From positions 1 to 15,342 of the forward strand of contig DMQJ01000276.1 of NCBI GenBank assembly GCA_003455715.1: 15,342 bases of DNA, given 5' to 3'. The position numbers and the translations under genes are program-made. This stretch comes from Acidimicrobiaceae bacterium. GTDB taxonomy: Bacteria; Actinomycetota; Acidimicrobiia; Acidimicrobiales; Ilumatobacteraceae. Of this stretch, positions 4,930 to 12,263 are shown piece by piece. The first letter of the stretch is position 1, and every line of letters begins with the position of its first letter. A model generated the notes under the pieces. That model had not been told where the DNA came from. It saw nothing but the letters and a program-made list of their open reading frames with translations, and made no database searches.

Positions 4930-6819
4930 ATGGTTGCCCGCCCGCCGTCCGGCACGATTCCTGATACTCCCGGGTCGTACCAGTTCAAAGACAGGGACGG
5001 CCGCGTCATCTACGTCGGCAAGGCGTCGAGCCTGCGCCAGCGGCTCTCGAACTACTTCCAAGACCCGCGCAACCTTCACCCGCGTACTGCCCAGATGGTT
5101 GCCACTGCCGCCACGGTCGAGTGGATCGAGGTACGCAACGAAGTCGAAGCGTTGATGCTCGAGTACAGCCTCATCAAGCAGCATCGGCCGCGCTTCAACA
5201 TCCGCCTGCGCGACGACAAGAGCTACCCGTTCCTGGCAATCACCCTCGACGAGCAGTTTCCACGTGCGCTGGTGATGCGCGGCCGCAAACGAAAGGGCAC
5301 CCGCTACTTCGGGCCCTATGCGCATGCCTACGCCATCCGCGACACGCTCGACCTGCTGTTGCGGAGCTTCCCCATCCGCACCTGCAGCCCTGGCAAGTTC
5401 AACGAGCATCACCGGCTGGGCCGTCCGTGCCTCCTGTTCCACATCGAGAAGTGCAGCGGCCCGTGCGTGGGTGAGATCGACGAGATGCCGTACCGCCAAC
5501 TCGTGCAAGAGCTGTGCGACTTCCTCGACGGCGACACCGACGACATCGTGCGGCGCTTGGAGGCCGAGATGGCGTCCGCCGCCAAGGAGTTGGAGTACGA
5601 GCGCGCCGCGCGCGTGCGCGACCGCCTGCTCGCCGTGCGCAAGGCCATCGAGAAGCAGCAGATGGTGGCCGAACGCAGCGAAGACATCGACATCATCGGC
5701 ATCGCCGACGACGAGTTGGAAGCGGCTGTGCAGGTGTTCTTCGTGCGCAAAGGCCGTGTCGTGGGTCGGAAGGGCTTCATCCTCGACAAGGTGGAGGAAC
5801 TCACCCCGGGCGGCCTGGTGGATCGCATCCTCGAGAACCTCTACGGCGACGAGCCGCCCGCCGGTGTGCCCAAGCAGGTGTTGGTGCCTGTCGAGCCCGA
5901 CGACCTACCGACGTACGAAGAGTGGCTCAGCCATCTGCGTGGCAGCCGGGTACAGGTGCGCGTGCCCCAACGTGGCGACAAGCGGGCGCTGCACGAGACG
6001 GTCACCCGCAATGCCGGCGAGGAGTTCGTGCGCCATCGCCTCCGCCGGGCAGGCGACCACAATGCCCGTAGCCGGGCGCTCACCGAACTGCAAGACCTGC
6101 TCAGCCTCCCTGAGGCGCCCCTGCGTATCGAGTGCTACGACATGGCCCATCTGCAGGGCACCGACTATGTGGGATCGATGGTGGTACTGGAGGACGGCCT
6201 GCCCAACAAGCGCGAGTACCGCCGTTTCAAGGTGAAGACGGTGGCAGGCAACGACGATTACGCGGCCATGGAAGAGGTACTCACCCGGCGCCTGCAGGCC
6301 TACATCAACGAGCGCGACGCACCGCTCGACGACGACCTGGTCGACGGCCAGGCGGGCAAGCGGCCGAAGAAGTTCGCCTATCCGCCGCAGTTGTTGGTGG
6401 TCGACGGGGGCAAGGGTCAGCTTGCCGTCGCCGAGCGTGTGGTCAGGTCGCTCGGGCTGGCCGACGAGATTCCCATTGCCTCATTGGCGAAGCGCTTCGA
6501 AGAGGTCTACGTGCCCGGGCGGAGCCAGCCGGTGGAAGTGCCGCGGGGCAGCGATGCGTTGTTCATGCTCCAGCGGATCCGTGACGAAGCCCACCGTTTC
6601 GCCAACACGTTCCACCGCGAATTGCGTGGCAAGCGTATGACGGCGTCGTCGCTCGACGGCATCCCAGGGCTCGGTGAGGCACGCAAGCAGAAGCTGGTCA
6701 AGGCGATGGGCGGGGTCAACGCGGTGAAGAAGGCGTCGCTGGACGAACTGCAGGCCCTGTCGTTCCTCCCGGCCGCTGTGGCCGAAGCGATCCACGCCAA
6801 GTTCCACAGCGCTCAGTGA
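4930..6819 (+). CDS. uvrC: UvrABC system protein C, excinuclease nuclease subunit
   Basis: UvrC makes the 3' and 5' incisions around a lesion held by UvrB. The 629-residue protein has the full family layout. The N-terminal GIY-YIG nuclease domain shows IPDTPGSYQFKD ... VIYVGKA. Four cysteines (152, 167, 175, 179) match the spacing of the [4Fe-4S] ligands reported for E. coli UvrC. The UVR motif that contacts UvrB is near 195-240 (LEYERAARVRDRL). The RNase H-like 5' nuclease domain has ECYDMAH (Asp404), VVDGGKGQL (Asp492) and DEAHRF (His555), matching the known D-D-H triad. A C-terminal helix-hairpin-helix pair starts at SLDGIPGLGEARKQKL. The ATG at 4930 has no Shine-Dalgarno but lies 6 nt after TATCCT, so a leaderless mRNA is likely. 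The TGA overlaps the stop of the convergent LLM gene by 7 nt. Confidence 0.98.
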   Translation: MVARPPSGTIPDTPGSYQFKDRDGRVIYVGKASSLRQRLSNYFQDPRNLHPRTAQMVATAATVEWIEVRNEVEALMLEYSLIKQHRPRFNIRLRDDKSYPFLAITLDEQFPRALVMRGRKRKGTRYFGPYAHAYAIRDTLDLLLRSFPIRTCSPGKFNEHHRLGRPCLLFHIEKCSGPCVGEIDEMPYRQLVQELCDFLDGDTDDIVRRLEAEMASAAKELEYERAARVRDRLLAVRKAIEKQQMVAERSEDIDIIGIADDELEAAVQVFFVRKGRVVGRKGFILDKVEELTPGGLVDRILENLYGDEPPAGVPKQVLVPVEPDDLPTYEEWLSHLRGSRVQVRVPQRGDKRALHETVTRNAGEEFVRHRLRRAGDHNARSRALTELQDLLSLPEAPLRIECYDMAHLQGTDYVGSMVVLEDGLPNKREYRRFKVKTVAGNDDYAAMEEVLTRRLQAYINERDAPLDDDLVDGQAGKRPKKFAYPPQLLVVDGGKGQLAVAERVVRSLGLADEIPIASLAKRFEEVYVPGRSQPVEVPRGSDALFMLQRIRDEAHRFANTFHRELRGKRMTASSLDGIPGLGEARKQKLVKAMGGVNAVKKASLDELQALSFLPAAVAEAIHAKFHSAQ

Positions 6820-7721
6820 ACGTGCGCAAGCACCTCGGCATTGAGGCGCTCGAGTCGTTCGCGACGCTCGCCGGCAGAGCTTCCGAGGTTGAAGTCGGGC
6901 ACTGCAAACTCGTCGACGCCCAACGCCGTGTACTGGTGCAACAGCTCGATGAGTTCGCCCGCTGTTCCGACGAGCGACATGCCGGGCGTGGCGGCACCCA
7001 CGGCTCGCTCGCGCTGCGCAGGAGTGTCGATGAGGAAGACCATCGCCTGCGTTGAACGGCGCAACGAGGCCGGGTCGCGTCCTTCCACTTCGCAGGCCGT
7101 GTCGACCACCGCACTCCGTTGCGCGAACTGCGTCGTGTCGCCCCAGGTGTTCCACTCGTCGGCGAAGCGAGCCGTGAGCCTCGCCATCCGCGGGCCTTTC
7201 GAGCCGATGAGAATCGGCAGCTGGCCCACGGGTCGGGGCCGACAGGCAACGTTGTCGAGTTGGTAGTACTCGCCGTTGAACGTCACCTGGTCGTGGCGCA
7301 GCATGCCGTGCACCACCTGCAGGGCTTCGGCGAAGCGGCGCACCCGTGGCCCAACAGCCAACAGATCGAACCCGTAGGCCTCGTGTTCGTTGCCCTGCCA
7401 GCCAGCACCGAGGCCCAGCACAGCTCGGCCGCCCGACACGTGATCGGCAGTGATGGCTCGCTTGGTGAGCACGACAGGGTGGTGGATGCTCACGGGTGAC
7501 ACCATCGACACGAGGCGCACCCGCGGCACCGCCGCGCCCACTGCGGTGAGCACCGACCAACACTCGAGCACATCGTCGTCGGGGCGGCTGTCGTCGGGAC
7601 CGTTCACCAGCAGGTGATCGGCAGCCCAGAACCCGCTGAAACCGTTGGCCTCCGCCCATCGGGCGAGAGCGATCGTTTCCTCCCATGAGCGGTCGAACGA
7701 TGGCCAGATGGCGAACTTCAT
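6813..7721 (-). CDS. LLM class F420-dependent oxidoreductase
   Basis: A 302-residue luciferase-like monooxygenase-fold (TIM barrel) protein. In actinobacteria this branch typically uses coenzyme F420 to reduce or oxidise small organic substrates; the substrate here is unknown. Features seen: N-terminal strand MKFAIWPSFD, then ALARWAEANGFSGFWAADHL, the mid-barrel VSPVSIHHPVVLTKRA, and the glycine-rich GGRAVLGLGAGWQGNEHEAY segment typical of F420-binding LLM proteins. The QLPILIGSKGPRMARLTARF segment is also characteristic. It is the second gene of an operon with the TetR-SnoaL gene, whose stop lies 9 nt upstream. A good Shine-Dalgarno (AGGAG, 6 nt from ATG) supports this start. The 3' end overlaps uvrC on the opposite strand by 7 nt. 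FMN-dependent use cannot be excluded, but the sequence looks F420-type. Confidence 0.9.
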   Translation of the reverse strand: MKFAIWPSFDRSWEETIALARWAEANGFSGFWAADHLLVNGPDDSRPDDDVLECWSVLTAVGAAVPRVRLVSMVSPVSIHHPVVLTKRAITADHVSGGRAVLGLGAGWQGNEHEAYGFDLLAVGPRVRRFAEALQVVHGMLRHDQVTFNGEYYQLDNVACRPRPVGQLPILIGSKGPRMARLTARFADEWNTWGDTTQFAQRSAVVDTACEVEGRDPASLRRSTQAMVFLIDTPAQRERAVGAATPGMSLVGTAGELIELLHQYTALGVDEFAVPDFNLGSSAGERRERLERLNAEVLAHVH

Positions 7722-7727
7722 GAGTGG

Positions 7728-7732
7728 CTCCT
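7728..7732 (-). promoter_or_regulatory. Ribosome binding site of the LLM gene overlapping the upstream stop codon
   Basis: On the minus strand the TAG stop of the TetR-SnoaL gene runs directly into AGGAG (TAGGAG), followed by 6 nt and the ATG of the LLM gene. This is a near-ideal Shine-Dalgarno spacing and suggests that termination on the regulator gene and initiation on the LLM gene are coupled. Confidence 0.75.
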
Positions 7733-8768
7733 AGGCGAAGCGATGGATGCGCTCGAAGACACGCTCGGCGAAGAGCCAGGTGCCGTCGCGGCGCACATAG
7801 CGGTCGGTGAAGACGCCCAGCACCGAGTTGATGTCGCTGCCCTTTCGGCGCTGCCACTGCTCGGTGACGGTGACCCGTCCGGTGGCCGTGCCCGCCGACT
7901 CGTCGACCTCGAACACGGCGTTGGTGCAGCCCTGAACGACCCATTTGCACGACCCGTAGCGCTGGTCCCACAGCTCCATCACGGCGTCGATTCCCTCGGC
8001 GACGTCGCCTGCCTCCCAACGAGCGTCCTTCACCCACAGGGTGCGGGCCTCGTCGGCATCGAGCCGAGCCGCTGAATCGGCGAACCGGGCAACGAGCTGA
8101 CGCAGCGCAGTGTCGGTGATGGGGGAGGGGCTGCGCGGGCCGGGCCGCTGCGGCACCTCGGTGTCGCGAAGCGCGGCCGGTTCGAGGCCCACTTCCCACG
8201 CTGCCAACGTGCGCACATGGTCGATGAGCTGGTCGCGGGTCATCATCCCGTCGTGTGCAGCGAACTGAACGGCGAGGCCATCGACCACGGCGGTGAGCCG
8301 TGTCGCTGCTGCGCTGGGATCGTCGCAGGCGAACTCGCCGCGCGCGACGCCGTTGGCGATGACGCGGGCCAACAACTCCGCCGACTGCTCGTCGAGTTCC
8401 TGGCTGATCTTGCGCATCATCGGGTTACGTAGCGCCTCGCCCCATCCGTCGATCCACAGCATCCACTCAACGTCGCCGCTGCCTTCGGGCACGTAGTTCT
8501 GGATGGCGCGGTCGAGCTGGCCGACGGAGGTGGGCGCGGCTTCGATTTCGGCTTCCATCTCCGCGAGGTCTTTGCGGGCGTAGTGCGCGAACGCCTCGGC
8601 CAGCAACTGCTCCTTGGAGTCGAAGTGGTAGTGGATGAGACTGCTCGACACGCCGAGACGTTTGGCGACGTCGGCGATGCGAGTGGCGGCGAACCCCCGC
8701 TCGATGACGACCTCACAGGTGACCTCGAGGATCTCGGCGCGGCGCTCTTCGACGGTGGGCTTCTTCAC
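7731..8768 (-). CDS. TetR-family regulator fused to a SnoaL/NTF2-like domain
   Basis: With the GTG start at 8768 this is 345 residues, far longer than a normal TetR protein (about 190-220). Residues 8-56 are a canonical TetR helix-turn-helix domain: AEILEVTCEVVIERGFAATR, then IADVAKRLGVSSSLIHYHFDSKEQLL. Residues about 75-195 form a helical ligand/dimerisation domain (EWMLWIDGWGEALRNP, RLTAVVDGLAVQF), BetI-like in style. A Pro/Arg-rich linker (about 200-218) leads to a SnoaL_4-type alpha+beta domain (about 220-345): LVARFADSAARLDADEARTL ... ATGRVTVTEQWQ ... FTDRYVRRDGTWLFAERVFE. SnoaL-fold proteins bind polyketides, steroids and similar compounds. The 'HxxxN' pair common in SnoaL_4 members reads QGCTN, so this domain may sense rather than catalyse. 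GTG 8768 is preferred over GTG 8816 because the family start (KKPTVEERRAEIL) follows it and TATCGT lies 8 nt upstream. It probably controls itself, the LLM gene and the divergent PPOx-SDR operon. Confidence 0.85.
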   Translation of the reverse strand: MKKPTVEERRAEILEVTCEVVIERGFAATRIADVAKRLGVSSSLIHYHFDSKEQLLAEAFAHYARKDLAEMEAEIEAAPTSVGQLDRAIQNYVPEGSGDVEWMLWIDGWGEALRNPMMRKISQELDEQSAELLARVIANGVARGEFACDDPSAAATRLTAVVDGLAVQFAAHDGMMTRDQLIDHVRTLAAWEVGLEPAALRDTEVPQRPGPRSPSPITDTALRQLVARFADSAARLDADEARTLWVKDARWEAGDVAEGIDAVMELWDQRYGSCKWVVQGCTNAVFEVDESAGTATGRVTVTEQWQRRKGSDINSVLGVFTDRYVRRDGTWLFAERVFERIHRFA

Positions 8769-8776
8769 TGCCGCGC

Positions 8777-8812
8777 ACGATACCGGCAGACACTTGCCAA
8801 GGACGCGATGAT
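8777..8812. promoter_or_regulatory. Divergent promoter/operator region between TetR-SnoaL and PPOx genes
   Basis: The 50-nt gap carries candidate -10 boxes for both directions: TATCGT on the minus strand (complement of 8777-8782), 8 nt before the GTG of the regulator, and a weaker GATGAT (8807-8812) on the plus strand, exactly 6 nt before the ATG of the PPOx gene. Between them is an imperfect inverted repeat GGCA-N6-TGCC (8785-8798), placed where a TetR dimer could block both promoters. The repeat is short and could be chance in GC-rich DNA. No good -35 boxes are seen. Confidence 0.4.
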
Positions 8813-8818
8813 CCACAC

Positions 8819-9247
8819 ATGGACCTCGACGAGATCAAGCAGAAGGCAGCCGCACTCAGCCCGTGGGCGCACATCGCCACGGTGCGCCCCGACGGCACTC
8901 CCGATGTCACCCCGGTGCACCCCTGTTGGGAAGGTGACACCCTCTGGATCATGGTGTTCACCGGAGCGGTGAAGGCACGCAACGTGGCCGCCAACCCGAA
9001 GGTGGCGTTGCACTGGCAGGTCACCGAGAAGGGCGACGGGCTGGAGTTGTGGGGTACCGCCACGCTGCACACCGACCTCGCCACCAAGGAACGCCTGTGG
9101 AACGGAGTCTTCGACTACGACCTCAATCTGTTCGCCCCTGACGGCCCATCGTCGCCACAGGTGGCCTTCCTTGCGGTCGAACCTCACCGCGCCGTCTACC
9201 TCGCGGCATACGGGATGGCGGGCACGTTCCGTTGGGCCCGGCAGTGA
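8819..9247 (+). CDS. Pyridoxamine 5'-phosphate oxidase-fold protein, probably F420-dependent
   Basis: A 142-residue split beta-barrel protein of the PPOx/FDOR superfamily, whose actinobacterial members bind F420 or FMN. It shows the typical opening ALSPWAHIATVRPDGTPDVT, the barrel strand DTLWIMVFTGAVKARNVAAN with its cofactor-phosphate-binding Lys-Ala-Arg-Asn turn, then PKVALHWQV and LELWGTATLH. The C-terminal strand PHRAVYLAAYGMAGTFRW completes the fold. Length is normal for single-domain members. It is the first gene of an operon with the SDR gene, whose GTG overlaps the TGA in a 4-nt GTGA. The ATG lacks a Shine-Dalgarno and lies 6 nt after a possible -10 box, so it may be leaderless. F420 as cofactor is an inference from family resemblance; FMN is the alternative. 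Confidence 0.85.
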   Translation: MDLDEIKQKAAALSPWAHIATVRPDGTPDVTPVHPCWEGDTLWIMVFTGAVKARNVAANPKVALHWQVTEKGDGLELWGTATLHTDLATKERLWNGVFDYDLNLFAPDGPSSPQVAFLAVEPHRAVYLAAYGMAGTFRWARQ

Positions 9248-10038
9248 GTCGCCTGACGTCGCTCAACCGTTCGGTGGCGGGAAAGCGGGTCATCGTCACG
9301 GGGGCTGCATCGGGCATGGGCAGGGCGACCGCTCACCTCTTCGCCGATGAAGGCGCGTGGGTGGCAGTCGTCGATGTCAGTGCCGATCGTGTCAATGAGG
9401 TGGTCGGCGAGATTCACCGAGTTCACGGCCCCCAACGCGCCCACGGGTTCGTCACCGACGTGGGCCGCCACGACGACCTCCGTCAGTTGGTGTCCGATGT
9501 CGTCGACACAGTGGGCGGGGTCGATGCGCTGGTCAACAATGCCGGTATCTCGCTGGTCAACTCGGCCTTCCAAGAGGAAGCCGAGTACGAGGCCAACTGG
9601 GCGCGCACACTCGACGTGAACCTCACGGCTCACTCAAGGCTCATCCGGCTGTGCCTGCCGTTTCTGCGGGCAGCGGACGGCGGGGGGCGGGTGGTGAACA
9701 TCGCCTCCACGGAGGCCATCGTCACCACGGCCGGGCTCGCTGCCTATGCGGCCACCAAGGCCGGCGTGGTGGGGCTCACCAAGAGCTTTGCAGTCGAACT
9801 CGGCAGATTGGGCATCACCGTCAACTGCATCTGTCCGGGGCCGATCAACACCGGTATGACGGCACCGATCCCAGATGAAGCCAAGGAGGTGTATGCCAAG
9901 CGACGCGTGCCGCTGCGCCGCTACGGCGACCCCGAAGAGGTGGCCCACATGACCCTCAGCCTCTGCATGCCCGCCAGCAGTTTCGTCAACGGTGCCATCG
10001 TGCCTGTCGATGGAGGGATGAGTATTCGCCACACGTGA
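9244..10038 (+). CDS. Short-chain dehydrogenase/reductase (SDR), classical type
   Basis: A 264-residue NAD(P)-dependent oxidoreductase of the classical SDR family. The cofactor loop is TGAASGMGRAT (19-29); an Asp at the end of strand 2 (VAVVDVSAD) favours NAD(H) over NADP(H). NNAGIS follows, then the catalytic Ser155 (NIASTEA) and the Tyr168-x3-Lys172 pair (YAATK). PGPINTGM and a C-terminal FVNGAIVPVDGG are typical of the 3-oxoacyl-ACP-reductase/3-hydroxysteroid-dehydrogenase-like branch. The substrate is not determinable. GTG at 9244 is chosen as the start because it overlaps the PPOx stop (GTGA), implying translational coupling, and because the family N-terminus follows at once; a TTG four codons upstream is in frame but less likely. 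The gene ends 17 nt before the convergent AttH/CrtC-like gene. Confidence 0.95.
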   Translation: MSRLTSLNRSVAGKRVIVTGAASGMGRATAHLFADEGAWVAVVDVSADRVNEVVGEIHRVHGPQRAHGFVTDVGRHDDLRQLVSDVVDTVGGVDALVNNAGISLVNSAFQEEAEYEANWARTLDVNLTAHSRLIRLCLPFLRAADGGGRVVNIASTEAIVTTAGLAAYAATKAGVVGLTKSFAVELGRLGITVNCICPGPINTGMTAPIPDEAKEVYAKRRVPLRRYGDPEEVAHMTLSLCMPASSFVNGAIVPVDGGMSIRHT

Positions 10039-10055: not shown

Positions 10056-11201
10056 TCAGCCGGCGTAGCCGTCGAGTATCCCGGTGAGCCCGGTGGGGTG
10101 CGGCCCGATGGCCAACTGCTCGAGGATGCCCTGACCGTGCTCTTGGCGACCGTCGGGCAACGTGATGGTGGCCGTGCAGAGAGCCTGCACGTGAATGTTC
10201 TCGCGTGTCAGCGCCTGAGCCACCGGGGTATCGAGGCGCTCGCCCGTGGTGACGGCTTCACCCTTCCAGGCCCCGTGGGTGAACTCGGGGTGCCCGTAGC
10301 CGATGCCCCGCATGTAGAACTCGAACTGCGGGGTGAGTCGCACGGTGCTCACCCCACCGTCCCAGTCGATGAGGTCGTATTCGAAGTGGTCGGCCCATCG
10401 GGTGCCCGGACGCCACTGCACACGCCAGTCGACGGTGCGCATCATGCGCGGCTCGGCGCCGACGGGTGCGATGGTGCCGGTCTCGTGCCACCGCCGCCCG
10501 TCGCCGAAGTCGTTGACATCGAAGTGGGTGCTCATCGACGGGAAGTTGATCGGCGCCCACAGCCAGAAGAACTGAGGGAGTGCCACCGGTGCGCCGCTCG
10601 GGCCGGCTTCGCCGACCGGCCGGATGCCCCACGACCGGTCGCGCGAACCCCAGACGTCGTCGGGCGTGATGGCATGGTGGACGCCGTCGAGTTCGATCCA
10701 ACCGCTCCACGTGCCGAACTGGGTGAGACGGGTGTAGTCGAAGAACGGCCGAACCCCGGCGCGCTGGAAGAAGTGGGGCTCCTCGATCGCGGGGGAGCGA
10801 GACTCGAAAACGAGGTCGGCCGCAATGCCCTGATCGGGAGCATCGACGCGCAGCCGTAACCGATGGAGTGGTTCCAGCACCTCCACGACGATGGGTCCGA
10901 GCGACGTCGCGTCGCGCCGATCGTCGGGTGCCCGCTGCGACCGAAAGACGCTGGTTTGCCGGCCACCGTTCACCACGCAGAACGCGGCGTCGGCGACATG
11001 ACGGTTGGGGTACAGGCCCATGGCTGCGGCGAAGTACACGCTGCCGTCGCGGGTGTAGCCGTTGAAGAAGTAGCGGTCGTAGTGGTTCAGATCGGCGGTG
11101 GCAGTGTGGGCGACCGGCACCGAAGCCTGGTGGATGGGGTAGTCGTCGAAGCTCGTCAGCACGTCGCGAACCGTATCCACCCGTGTGGCTGGCCCCCGCA
11201 C
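10056..11201 (-). CDS. AttH/CrtC-like (lipocalin-type) protein of unknown function
   Basis: A 381-residue protein without evident signal peptide or membrane segments. It resembles a family common in actinobacteria and proteobacteria with a double lipocalin-like beta-barrel related to AttH and to the carotenoid hydratase CrtC (DUF7064/DUF7065-type). Recognisable elements are NHYDRYFFNGYTRDGSVYFA near 40-60, GLYPNRHVADAAF, RLTQFGTWSGWIELDG, and the hallmark GSRDRSWGIRPVG (roughly 184-196). CrtC hydrates carotenoid double bonds and homologues often sit near steroid or lipid catabolism genes, so a hydrophobic substrate is plausible but unproven. The start is GTG at 11201, 24 nt from the divergent ctaA start; an internal GTG (VDTVRDV) is an alternative. 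No Shine-Dalgarno is seen. Confidence 0.75.
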   Translation of the reverse strand: MRGPATRVDTVRDVLTSFDDYPIHQASVPVAHTATADLNHYDRYFFNGYTRDGSVYFAAAMGLYPNRHVADAAFCVVNGGRQTSVFRSQRAPDDRRDATSLGPIVVEVLEPLHRLRLRVDAPDQGIAADLVFESRSPAIEEPHFFQRAGVRPFFDYTRLTQFGTWSGWIELDGVHHAITPDDVWGSRDRSWGIRPVGEAGPSGAPVALPQFFWLWAPINFPSMSTHFDVNDFGDGRRWHETGTIAPVGAEPRMMRTVDWRVQWRPGTRWADHFEYDLIDWDGGVSTVRLTPQFEFYMRGIGYGHPEFTHGAWKGEAVTTGERLDTPVAQALTRENIHVQALCTATITLPDGRQEHGQGILEQLAIGPHPTGLTGILDGYAG

Positions 11202-11225: not shown

Positions 11226-12263
11226 ATGTCACGTCTCACAGCACTCGTTCGTCGGGTGCGAGCGGAAGGTTTCACTCCGCGCGAGTTCCGCACGGTTGCC
11301 ATCACGGCATTGGTGCTCCTCTCGGTCATCGTCGTCACGGGTGGAGCAGTGCGTCTGTCGGGTTCCGGCCTGGGCTGCGACGACTGGCCGAACTGCAACA
11401 ACGAACGCTTCATCGACGTCTCCACCGGCCATGCCGCAGTGGAGAACATCAATCGGCTGTTCACCTTCTTGGTCGGCTTCGGTGTTCTGCTTGCCGCGCT
11501 GGCGGCCTGGTACCGGCGGCCGCGGCGGCGCGACCTGGTGGTGTACGGCCTGGTGATGCTCATCGGTGTGCCGGCGCAGGGCCTGGTCGGCGCGGTGGTG
11601 GTGTGGACCGATCTGCATCCCGCGGCGGTGCAGTGGCACTTCTTGTTGTCGATGGTGCTGGTTGCCGCCGCCGTGATGATGCTCGTGCGCGCCGGCGAGC
11701 CCGACGGCCCGCGTCGCATCGCCACCGTGGTGCCCCGGGTCCGCAGGCGTGTCCGCCTGCTGGCGGTGTGGACCAGCATCACCGTCGTCCTAGGCACGAT
11801 TGTCACCAACACCGGCCCTCACGCCGGCGACGAGTACGCCAAGCGCTTCTGGGGCATCGCAGACGTCGACGCCAGTGGTGAGCGCATCTTCCGGGTGAAC
11901 GGCGACGCATTGTCGTGGGTGTCGCGCGTCCACGGCGTGGTGGTGTGGGTCACCGTGGCCGTTGCCTTCTCGCTGCTCTGGACCCTGCGGAATCTTCGGA
12001 AAGACCGCGGGATGCTCGATGCACCGCTCACGGCGTGGCTGCTGGTGGCCATCGTGCAAGGCTCGGTCGGTTACGTGCAGTATTCCGCCGGGCTGCCGGT
12101 GGGCCTGGTGGCCGTTCACCTTGCTGGTGCCACAACGCTGGTGGGTATCACCACGTGGTTGTGGGCCGCCACGAGCACCACCGCCGAGCGTGCGGGCGAC
12201 ATGGTGGAGCGCGTGGCCGGTCGTACTCGCCGCCCGAGGCGGGGCACATCCCTCGGATCCTGA
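11226..12263 (+). CDS. ctaA: Heme A synthase (COX15/CtaA family)
   Basis: Heme A synthase oxidises the C8 methyl group of heme O to give heme A for cytochrome aa3 oxidase, in the cytoplasmic membrane. The 345-residue protein has about eight membrane helices in two homologous four-helix halves. Family marks: GGAVRLSGSGLGCDDWPNC with the extracytoplasmic cysteine pair C51 and C57; TNTGPHAG (194-201); and heme-ligand histidine candidates H138 (QWHF), H236 (RVHG) and H298 (AVHLAG). The first-half position read as Glu-x-x-His in B. subtilis CtaA is ENIN here: Glu73 is kept, and the His is replaced by Asn76. I recall the same Asn in many actinobacterial homologues. A basic cytoplasmic tail (RTRRPRR) ends the protein. 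The next gene starts 5 nt after the stop, so the two are probably cotranscribed. Confidence 0.93.
   Translation: MSRLTALVRRVRAEGFTPREFRTVAITALVLLSVIVVTGGAVRLSGSGLGCDDWPNCNNERFIDVSTGHAAVENINRLFTFLVGFGVLLAALAAWYRRPRRRDLVVYGLVMLIGVPAQGLVGAVVVWTDLHPAAVQWHFLLSMVLVAAAVMMLVRAGEPDGPRRIATVVPRVRRRVRLLAVWTSITVVLGTIVTNTGPHAGDEYAKRFWGIADVDASGERIFRVNGDALSWVSRVHGVVVWVTVAVAFSLLWTLRNLRKDRGMLDAPLTAWLLVAIVQGSVGYVQYSAGLPVGLVAVHLAGATTLVGITTWLWAATSTTAERAGDMVERVAGRTRRPRRGTSLGS

Follow-up and report, generated by a model that had tools for sequence, protein, structure and literature searches.

A TetR-type regulator fused to a SnoaL_4 barrel in the Ilumatobacteraceae: conservation, locus states and proposed function

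TetR regulators normally sense their ligands with their own helical domain. The locus described here raises the question of what a second domain, with the SnoaL_4 fold, does in the same polypeptide. The gene lies on contig DMQJ01000276.1 of an Acidimicrobiaceae bacterium (Ilumatobacteraceae; GenBank assembly GCA_003455715.1), of which a stretch of 15,342 nucleotides, called the window throughout, was analyzed. The best supported reading, to which we assign a probability of about 0.5, is that it encodes a TetR protein that represses its own gene and carries, as a second ligand module, a barrel without catalytic function. No description of a TetR-SnoaL fusion was found in the open-licence literature searched.

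Architecture and conservation of the fusion gene

A preliminary description of the window had reported one unbroken frame with a complete TetR protein and a complete SnoaL_4 domain. A Pfam search of the two halves bears this out, with all matches above their cut-offs and no further domains in the protein (Table 1). The longest version of the frame, 7731-8816, is also unbroken. By profile the protein is a member of the TetR and SnoaL_4 families, and it is neither a BetI equivalog (TIGR03384, 61.5 bits against a cut-off of 201.3; NF001978, 55.6 against 118) nor a dyad enzyme. In a fold comparison with the full model 4ich and 4kwa rank highest, and the alignment with 4kwa covers residues 8-182 (E 4.6e-24).

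Table 1. Features of the fusion locus in the window.
Feature	Position	Strand	Basis or remark
TetR-SnoaL fusion gene, 345 aa	7731..8768	-	one frame, GTG start at 8768
TetR_N DNA-binding domain, residues 13-59	8592..8732	-	Pfam E 3.8e-15, 55.8 bits, cut-off 24
TetR_C_6 (BetI-type) helical domain, residues 84-189	8202..8519	-	Pfam E 1.6e-21, 77.1 bits, cut-off 27
Variable linker, residues 193-215	8124..8192	-	mean pairwise identity 0.33
SnoaL_4 / NTF2-like barrel (PF13577), residues 220-336	7761..8111	-	E 3.3e-12, 46.9 bits, cut-off 24
Ala234 codon, position of LinA/BaiE catalytic Asp	8067..8069	-	alignments
Gln279 codon, position of catalytic His	7932..7934	-	alignments
TATCGT, likely -10 box of leaderless transcript	8777..8782	-	8 nt before GTG
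Gap between divergent regulator and PPOX genes, 50 bp	8769..8818	.	likely operator place (inferred)
PPOX-class oxidoreductase gene, divergent	8819..9247	+	PNPOx_N 2.7e-15; TIGR03618 below cut-off
SDR dehydrogenase gene	9232..10038	+	Pfam
Rv3169-family protein gene	10056-11201	-	NCBIfam NF053593, 383 bits; without any Pfam domain
ctaA, heme A synthase (COX15-CtaA)	11226..12263	+	most constant fusion neighbour
LLM-class oxidoreductase gene	6813..7721	-	Pfam; 9 bp downstream

The homologue search, in which 7,996 candidates were scored, gave at least 832 homologues at E ≤ 1e-5. Among the 120 matches listed, one of which is the window's own protein, identity is 63-100% over 93-100% of the query, and all three domains are present in 120/120. 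Of the 221 genomes from the own family, the Ilumatobacteraceae, 81 have a match at E ≤ 1e-25 and 65 hold a full-length match, tallied by hand as one that reaches from residue 1-6 to residue 304 or beyond. The fusion is retained in small genomes too: in genus g149, whose matching genomes measure 1.0-2.2 Mb, 23 of 29 have a full-length match, which suggests that it is probably important to these bacteria. Fusions outside the family were sought, with the own family's sequences as queries, in 296 genomes from the class and 396 from the phylum. At class level 20 genomes have a match at E ≤ 1e-30; in six, all from the own family, it is full-length. At phylum level 25 genomes match the 85-row alignment at E ≤ 1e-40; 22 of these matches comprise the TetR half only, and the three full-length ones are the own genome and two of the same genus.

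These counts bear on the possibility, named in the preliminary description, that a frameshift or an assembly error joined two genes. Frame breaks do exist in two relatives, L079 and L085. The fusion is nevertheless intact, with no frameshift, across the full-length genomes and the 120 matches just given, and we reject the artefact. In L079 (1051-2141) the frame is broken in the barrel, in L085 (3218-4196) in the TetR half; sequencing error and decay are indistinguishable in both copies.

The two halves differ in their rate of change. Across 85 members, pairwise identity averages 0.87 for residues 1-60, 0.72 for residues 61-192, 0.33 for the linker and 0.44 for the barrel. Among 51 fused proteins ninety positions of TetR vary little or not at all, and the TetR half is the same in L036 and in L097, the latter from the own genus. 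W105, D107, W109, E111, A112 and R114 are also kept in 6/6 near TetR-only proteins and in at least 12/16 farther ones. At S43, Y63, V93, G96, S97 and E101 the two TetR-only rows from genus g11 agree with the fused proteins; the remaining four near TetR-only proteins do not.

Both halves are under purifying selection in close pairs. TetR dS (synonymous divergence) is below 0.5 in 12 pairs; in the nine of these with TetR dN (nonsynonymous divergence) below 0.02, the TetR half has a dN/dS of 0-0.04 and the barrel one of 0.05-0.16. The barrel could in principle be a passenger, the remnant of an accidental fusion under weak constraint, as its fast divergence together with that of the linker and the existence of TetR-only orthologues would allow. 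The low ratios in close pairs speak against this, as does a frame that is open through the barrel in 64/65 full-length genomes (in the remaining one, G308, the match reads through a stop); we hold a passenger to be very improbable.

The barrel and its catalytic positions

The C-terminal part is predicted to form an NTF2-like alpha+beta barrel of the SnoaL type (predicted local distance difference test, pLDDT, 97), the fold that the preliminary description had assigned to it. The structures nearest to the modelled barrel are the scytalone-dehydratase-like 3ef8, LinA and BaiE. LinA and BaiE carry a catalytic Asp-His dyad (for LinA, according to the available excerpt of PMC3507683), and alignments place Ala234 and Gln279 of the fusion protein at these positions. 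Position 234 is Asp in 0/85 members and mostly I, V, N or L. Position 279 is Q in 66, H in 10, E in 8 and P in 1, while position 283 is N in 43/85. The earlier observation that the usual HxxxN motif reads QxxxN is thus correct for the window, but it overlooked the second altered catalytic position, Ala234. With both dyad positions altered, the earlier preference for binding over catalysis finds support. A phmmer search of the window's barrel alone against PDB sequences returned mainly WD-repeat matches, which were taken for chance, and the LinA row alone was used.

A regulator and an enzyme might still share the chain. The barrel would then catalyse a step in the pathway of the neighbouring oxidoreductase genes through residues other than the Asp-His dyad, and would possibly consume the inducer. 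The general-base pair is, however, absent in 85/85 members, and the low identity of the barrel, 0.44 against 0.72-0.87 for TetR, would be unusual for one shared reaction. We regard an enzyme as possible but doubtful.

Four states of one gene slot

The fusion gene occupies a slot flanked by CtaA, Rv3169, SDR or PPOX genes on one side and by methyltransferase, M23 peptidase or histidine phosphatase genes on the other. This slot was found in four states. In the first it holds the fusion (65 genomes of the own family, the slot position itself being confirmed for the loci of the neighbourhood set). In the second, found in one genome (G484), the TetR gene is followed by two unfused SnoaL_4 genes, the first of which is called the separate SnoaL below, and then by an alcohol dehydrogenase gene. 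The third state, in five genomes (G485, G240, G362, G366 and G408), is TetR only; searches of these stretches with 14 fused barrels and two separate SnoaL proteins as queries found no barrel at E ≤ 1e-3. The fourth state is SnoaL only and occurs in seven genomes, namely G027, where the slot lies on one 4.83-Mb contig, and G363, G365, G369, G371, G372 and G373 of genus g11 (in G371 the upstream side of the slot is missing). These seven genomes gave no TetR match above 50 bits, whereas the six genomes in the second and third states score 230-265 bits. Genus g11 contains both TetR-only and SnoaL-only species. Broken or cut copies in G479, G375, G305 and G298 were excluded from the four states. 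The second SnoaL_4 gene of G484 (L115, 4401-4931), next to the alcohol dehydrogenase gene, has Asp at the first dyad position.

The separate SnoaL protein of G484 is nearest, outside itself, to two fused barrels from genus g10 (46% and 45% identity). The standalone SnoaL_4 proteins of the own family, from G027 and g11, belong to the same subfamily and are 35-43% identical to it (43% for G027); a further standalone protein, from L003, is 31% identical. As in the fusion barrel, the dyad is absent: the SnoaL-only proteins have I/Q at its positions in the six aligned in full and also in G371, and the L003 protein has V/Q. The G027 and g11 proteins differ from the fusion barrel in being unfused and alone in the regulator's slot. 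The L003 gene (1441-1863, on contig C520 of the own genome) is a SnoaL_4 paralogue that adjoins an SDR gene and a TetR-like open reading frame. The standalone kin of the barrel comprise 18 proteins, many on short contigs, of which P0137-P0139 alone were used, in a 64-row SnoaL tree. Among TetR-only relatives in four genomes outside the own family no common neighbour was recognised. Since TetR and SnoaL can each be retained without the other, the barrel probably functions independently as a module that binds metabolites.

The trees of the two halves differ in what they say about the origin of the fusion. On the TetR tree (73 rows, 51 fused and 22 single) the two g11 TetR-only rows are placed among the fused ones, so that the fused label requires two changes; a tree with the fused rows constrained together is not rejected (approximately unbiased test, p-AU 0.125). 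On the SnoaL tree (61 rows) the 50 fused rows lie on one side with a support of 75/90, unstarred, and grouping the g11 SnoaL-only proteins with the fused rows of g8, g12 and g149 is rejected (p-AU 0.009). When three distant paralogues are added in the 64-row tree, the fused rows no longer form one side and two changes are needed. Long branches weaken the results of both trees alike. The simplest account is that an ancestral pair of TetR and SnoaL genes was fused once and that a partner was lost elsewhere; we consider this likely but not proven. The TetR tree suggested that the fused gene had split in g11, but the SnoaL tree disfavours such a fission (p-AU 0.009), with the same caveat of long branches. 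A long TetR branch leading to proteins without the barrel was considered as a sign of coupling and dropped, since sister tips have similar path lengths.

Promoters, neighbours and proposed function

The GTG at 8768 is likely the start of the fusion gene. A start at 8816 is unlikely because a TANNNT box sits 6-9 nt 5' of the start codon in 53/54 unique loci (48 fused and 6 TetR-only; in 300 shuffles the mean was 3.4 and the maximum 10). GTG is the start codon in 53/54 loci, and a Shine-Dalgarno-like sequence is found in 2/54. This spacing together with GTG is the signature of a leaderless transcript that begins at the 8768 GTG.

In the 39 fused loci whose upstream sequence extends over 3 kb or more, CtaA occurs 37 times, Rv3169 19 times, SDR 17 times and PPOX 8 times. 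Of three divergent reference genes, the one closest to the fusion in 47 loci is CtaA in 24 cases, SDR in 13 and PPOX in 8, and 2 loci have none of the three. CtaA may be under the regulator's control, or its presence may simply reflect a stable gene order. The LLM gene follows the fusion in 1/44 loci, the window alone; it is probably co-transcribed with the fusion in the window's genome only and is not a general target. The whole right flank with the LLM and UvrC genes (4930-7721) is confined to the window (1/44 fused loci), by rearrangement or a contig join. Neither the LLM nor the PPOX protein reaches the NCBIfam threshold of its best F420 subfamily (61.2 bits with a threshold of 79.05, and 207 with one of 231.4), so that F420 is only a candidate cofactor for the two neighbours. 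The earlier suggestion that the regulator could control two candidate F420 redox genes is not upheld by these scores and neighbour counts.

The following mechanism would fit these data. The BetI-type TetR regulator probably represses its own gene and the divergent gene from the short gap between the two promoters; in the window only 50 bp separate the divergent regulator and PPOX genes, and a repressor bound in this gap would reach both promoters. The divergent target would be PPOX-SDR in the window and ctaA or SDR in relatives. The dyad-less barrel would most likely serve as an additional module for binding small molecules and would tune the repressor, with ligand altering DNA binding. It would descend from a separate protein encoded beside the TetR gene, fused probably once in this bacterial family. 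In the upstream regions of L037, L045, L047, L048 and L081 an ACGCTA/ACGTTA box toward the divergent gene mirrors the regulator's TAGCGT, as seen by eye; it is as if both promoters shared a -10 type, and they could share one operator.

The SnoaL-only loci show use of the barrel without TetR, and the dyad is missing there too, so binding is its simplest function. The two-input sensor of the preliminary description gains indirect support from sequence comparison: the TetR core is the same with or without the barrel, and the barrel occurs alone at the same locus. The SnoaL-only loci also keep an enzymatic role alive and weaken a purely structural one.

Several observations weigh against an autorepressor with a second ligand module. 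The persistence of SnoaL without TetR means that the barrel need not serve the regulator. His at position 279 in 10/85 members and H/H at the dyad positions of the separate SnoaL of G484 would permit other chemistry. No inverted repeat conserved across clades was seen in 54 upstream regions inspected by eye, without motif statistics. The full-length model has a predicted template modelling score (pTM) of 0.66 and does not fix the domain arrangement. Finally, barrel dN/dS is 0.28-0.94 in three more diverged pairs of the 12 (L094-L102, L090-L094 and L090-L106) and likewise raised, up to values above 1, in many more distant pairs; these high values were taken for putative saturation.

The barrel could instead stabilise or shape the TetR dimer by surface contacts, without a ligand. 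Such a role is proposed for the SnoaL-like extension of ECF41 (extracytoplasmic function) sigma factors in the excerpts available of PMC8999054 and PMC7730460, and NTF2-fold proteins often oligomerise, LinA being a trimer in the excerpt of PMC3507683. TetR without the barrel in 5 genomes, the barrel without TetR in 7 and the lack of a confident inter-domain arrangement (pTM 0.66) argue against it, and we consider a purely structural role unlikely.

A more far-reaching reading, which we consider less likely than not, is that the ancestor's SnoaL bound a pathway metabolite beside a TetR repressor and that fusion added it as a second ligand input. A trans-acting metabolite-binding SnoaL would then have become a cis sensor in a two-input one-component repressor, while sister lineages dismantled the pair and kept one half or the other. 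Through the fused regulator a metabolite signal may act on heme A synthesis and on the assembly of the respiratory oxidase; small genomes with ctaA as the only constant divergent neighbour would be the setting for this link. An enzyme-fold barrel without its dyad survives here at one locus as one of two genes, in a fusion and alone, as does its TetR partner. The locus therefore makes it possible to test directly how a protein from a pathway is taken up into a regulator, and whether a TetR protein can integrate two ligands.

The fusion protein can be set beside several known systems. With BetI-type TetR regulators (4ich, 4kwa with choline and 4jnn with benzamidine) it shares the DNA-binding and helical domains, but it differs in the C-terminal SnoaL barrel and falls far under the BetI equivalog cut-offs. 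From the SnoaL_4 dyad enzymes (LinA, BaiE and 3ef8) it differs in Ala234/Gln279 and in the fusion to a regulator. The nearest precedent, in the excerpts of PMC8999054 and PMC7730460, is the SnoaL-like extension of ECF41/ECF56 sigma factors (SigJ, SigG1), a SnoaL-type barrel behind a transcription factor that is reported or predicted there to contact the sigma core and affect activity. Many members of the fusion also have PF12680 (SnoaL_2) in precomputed domains, a further likeness to ECF41/ECF56. The core here is TetR and not a sigma factor, and on the evidence of these excerpts the likeness concerns the architecture.
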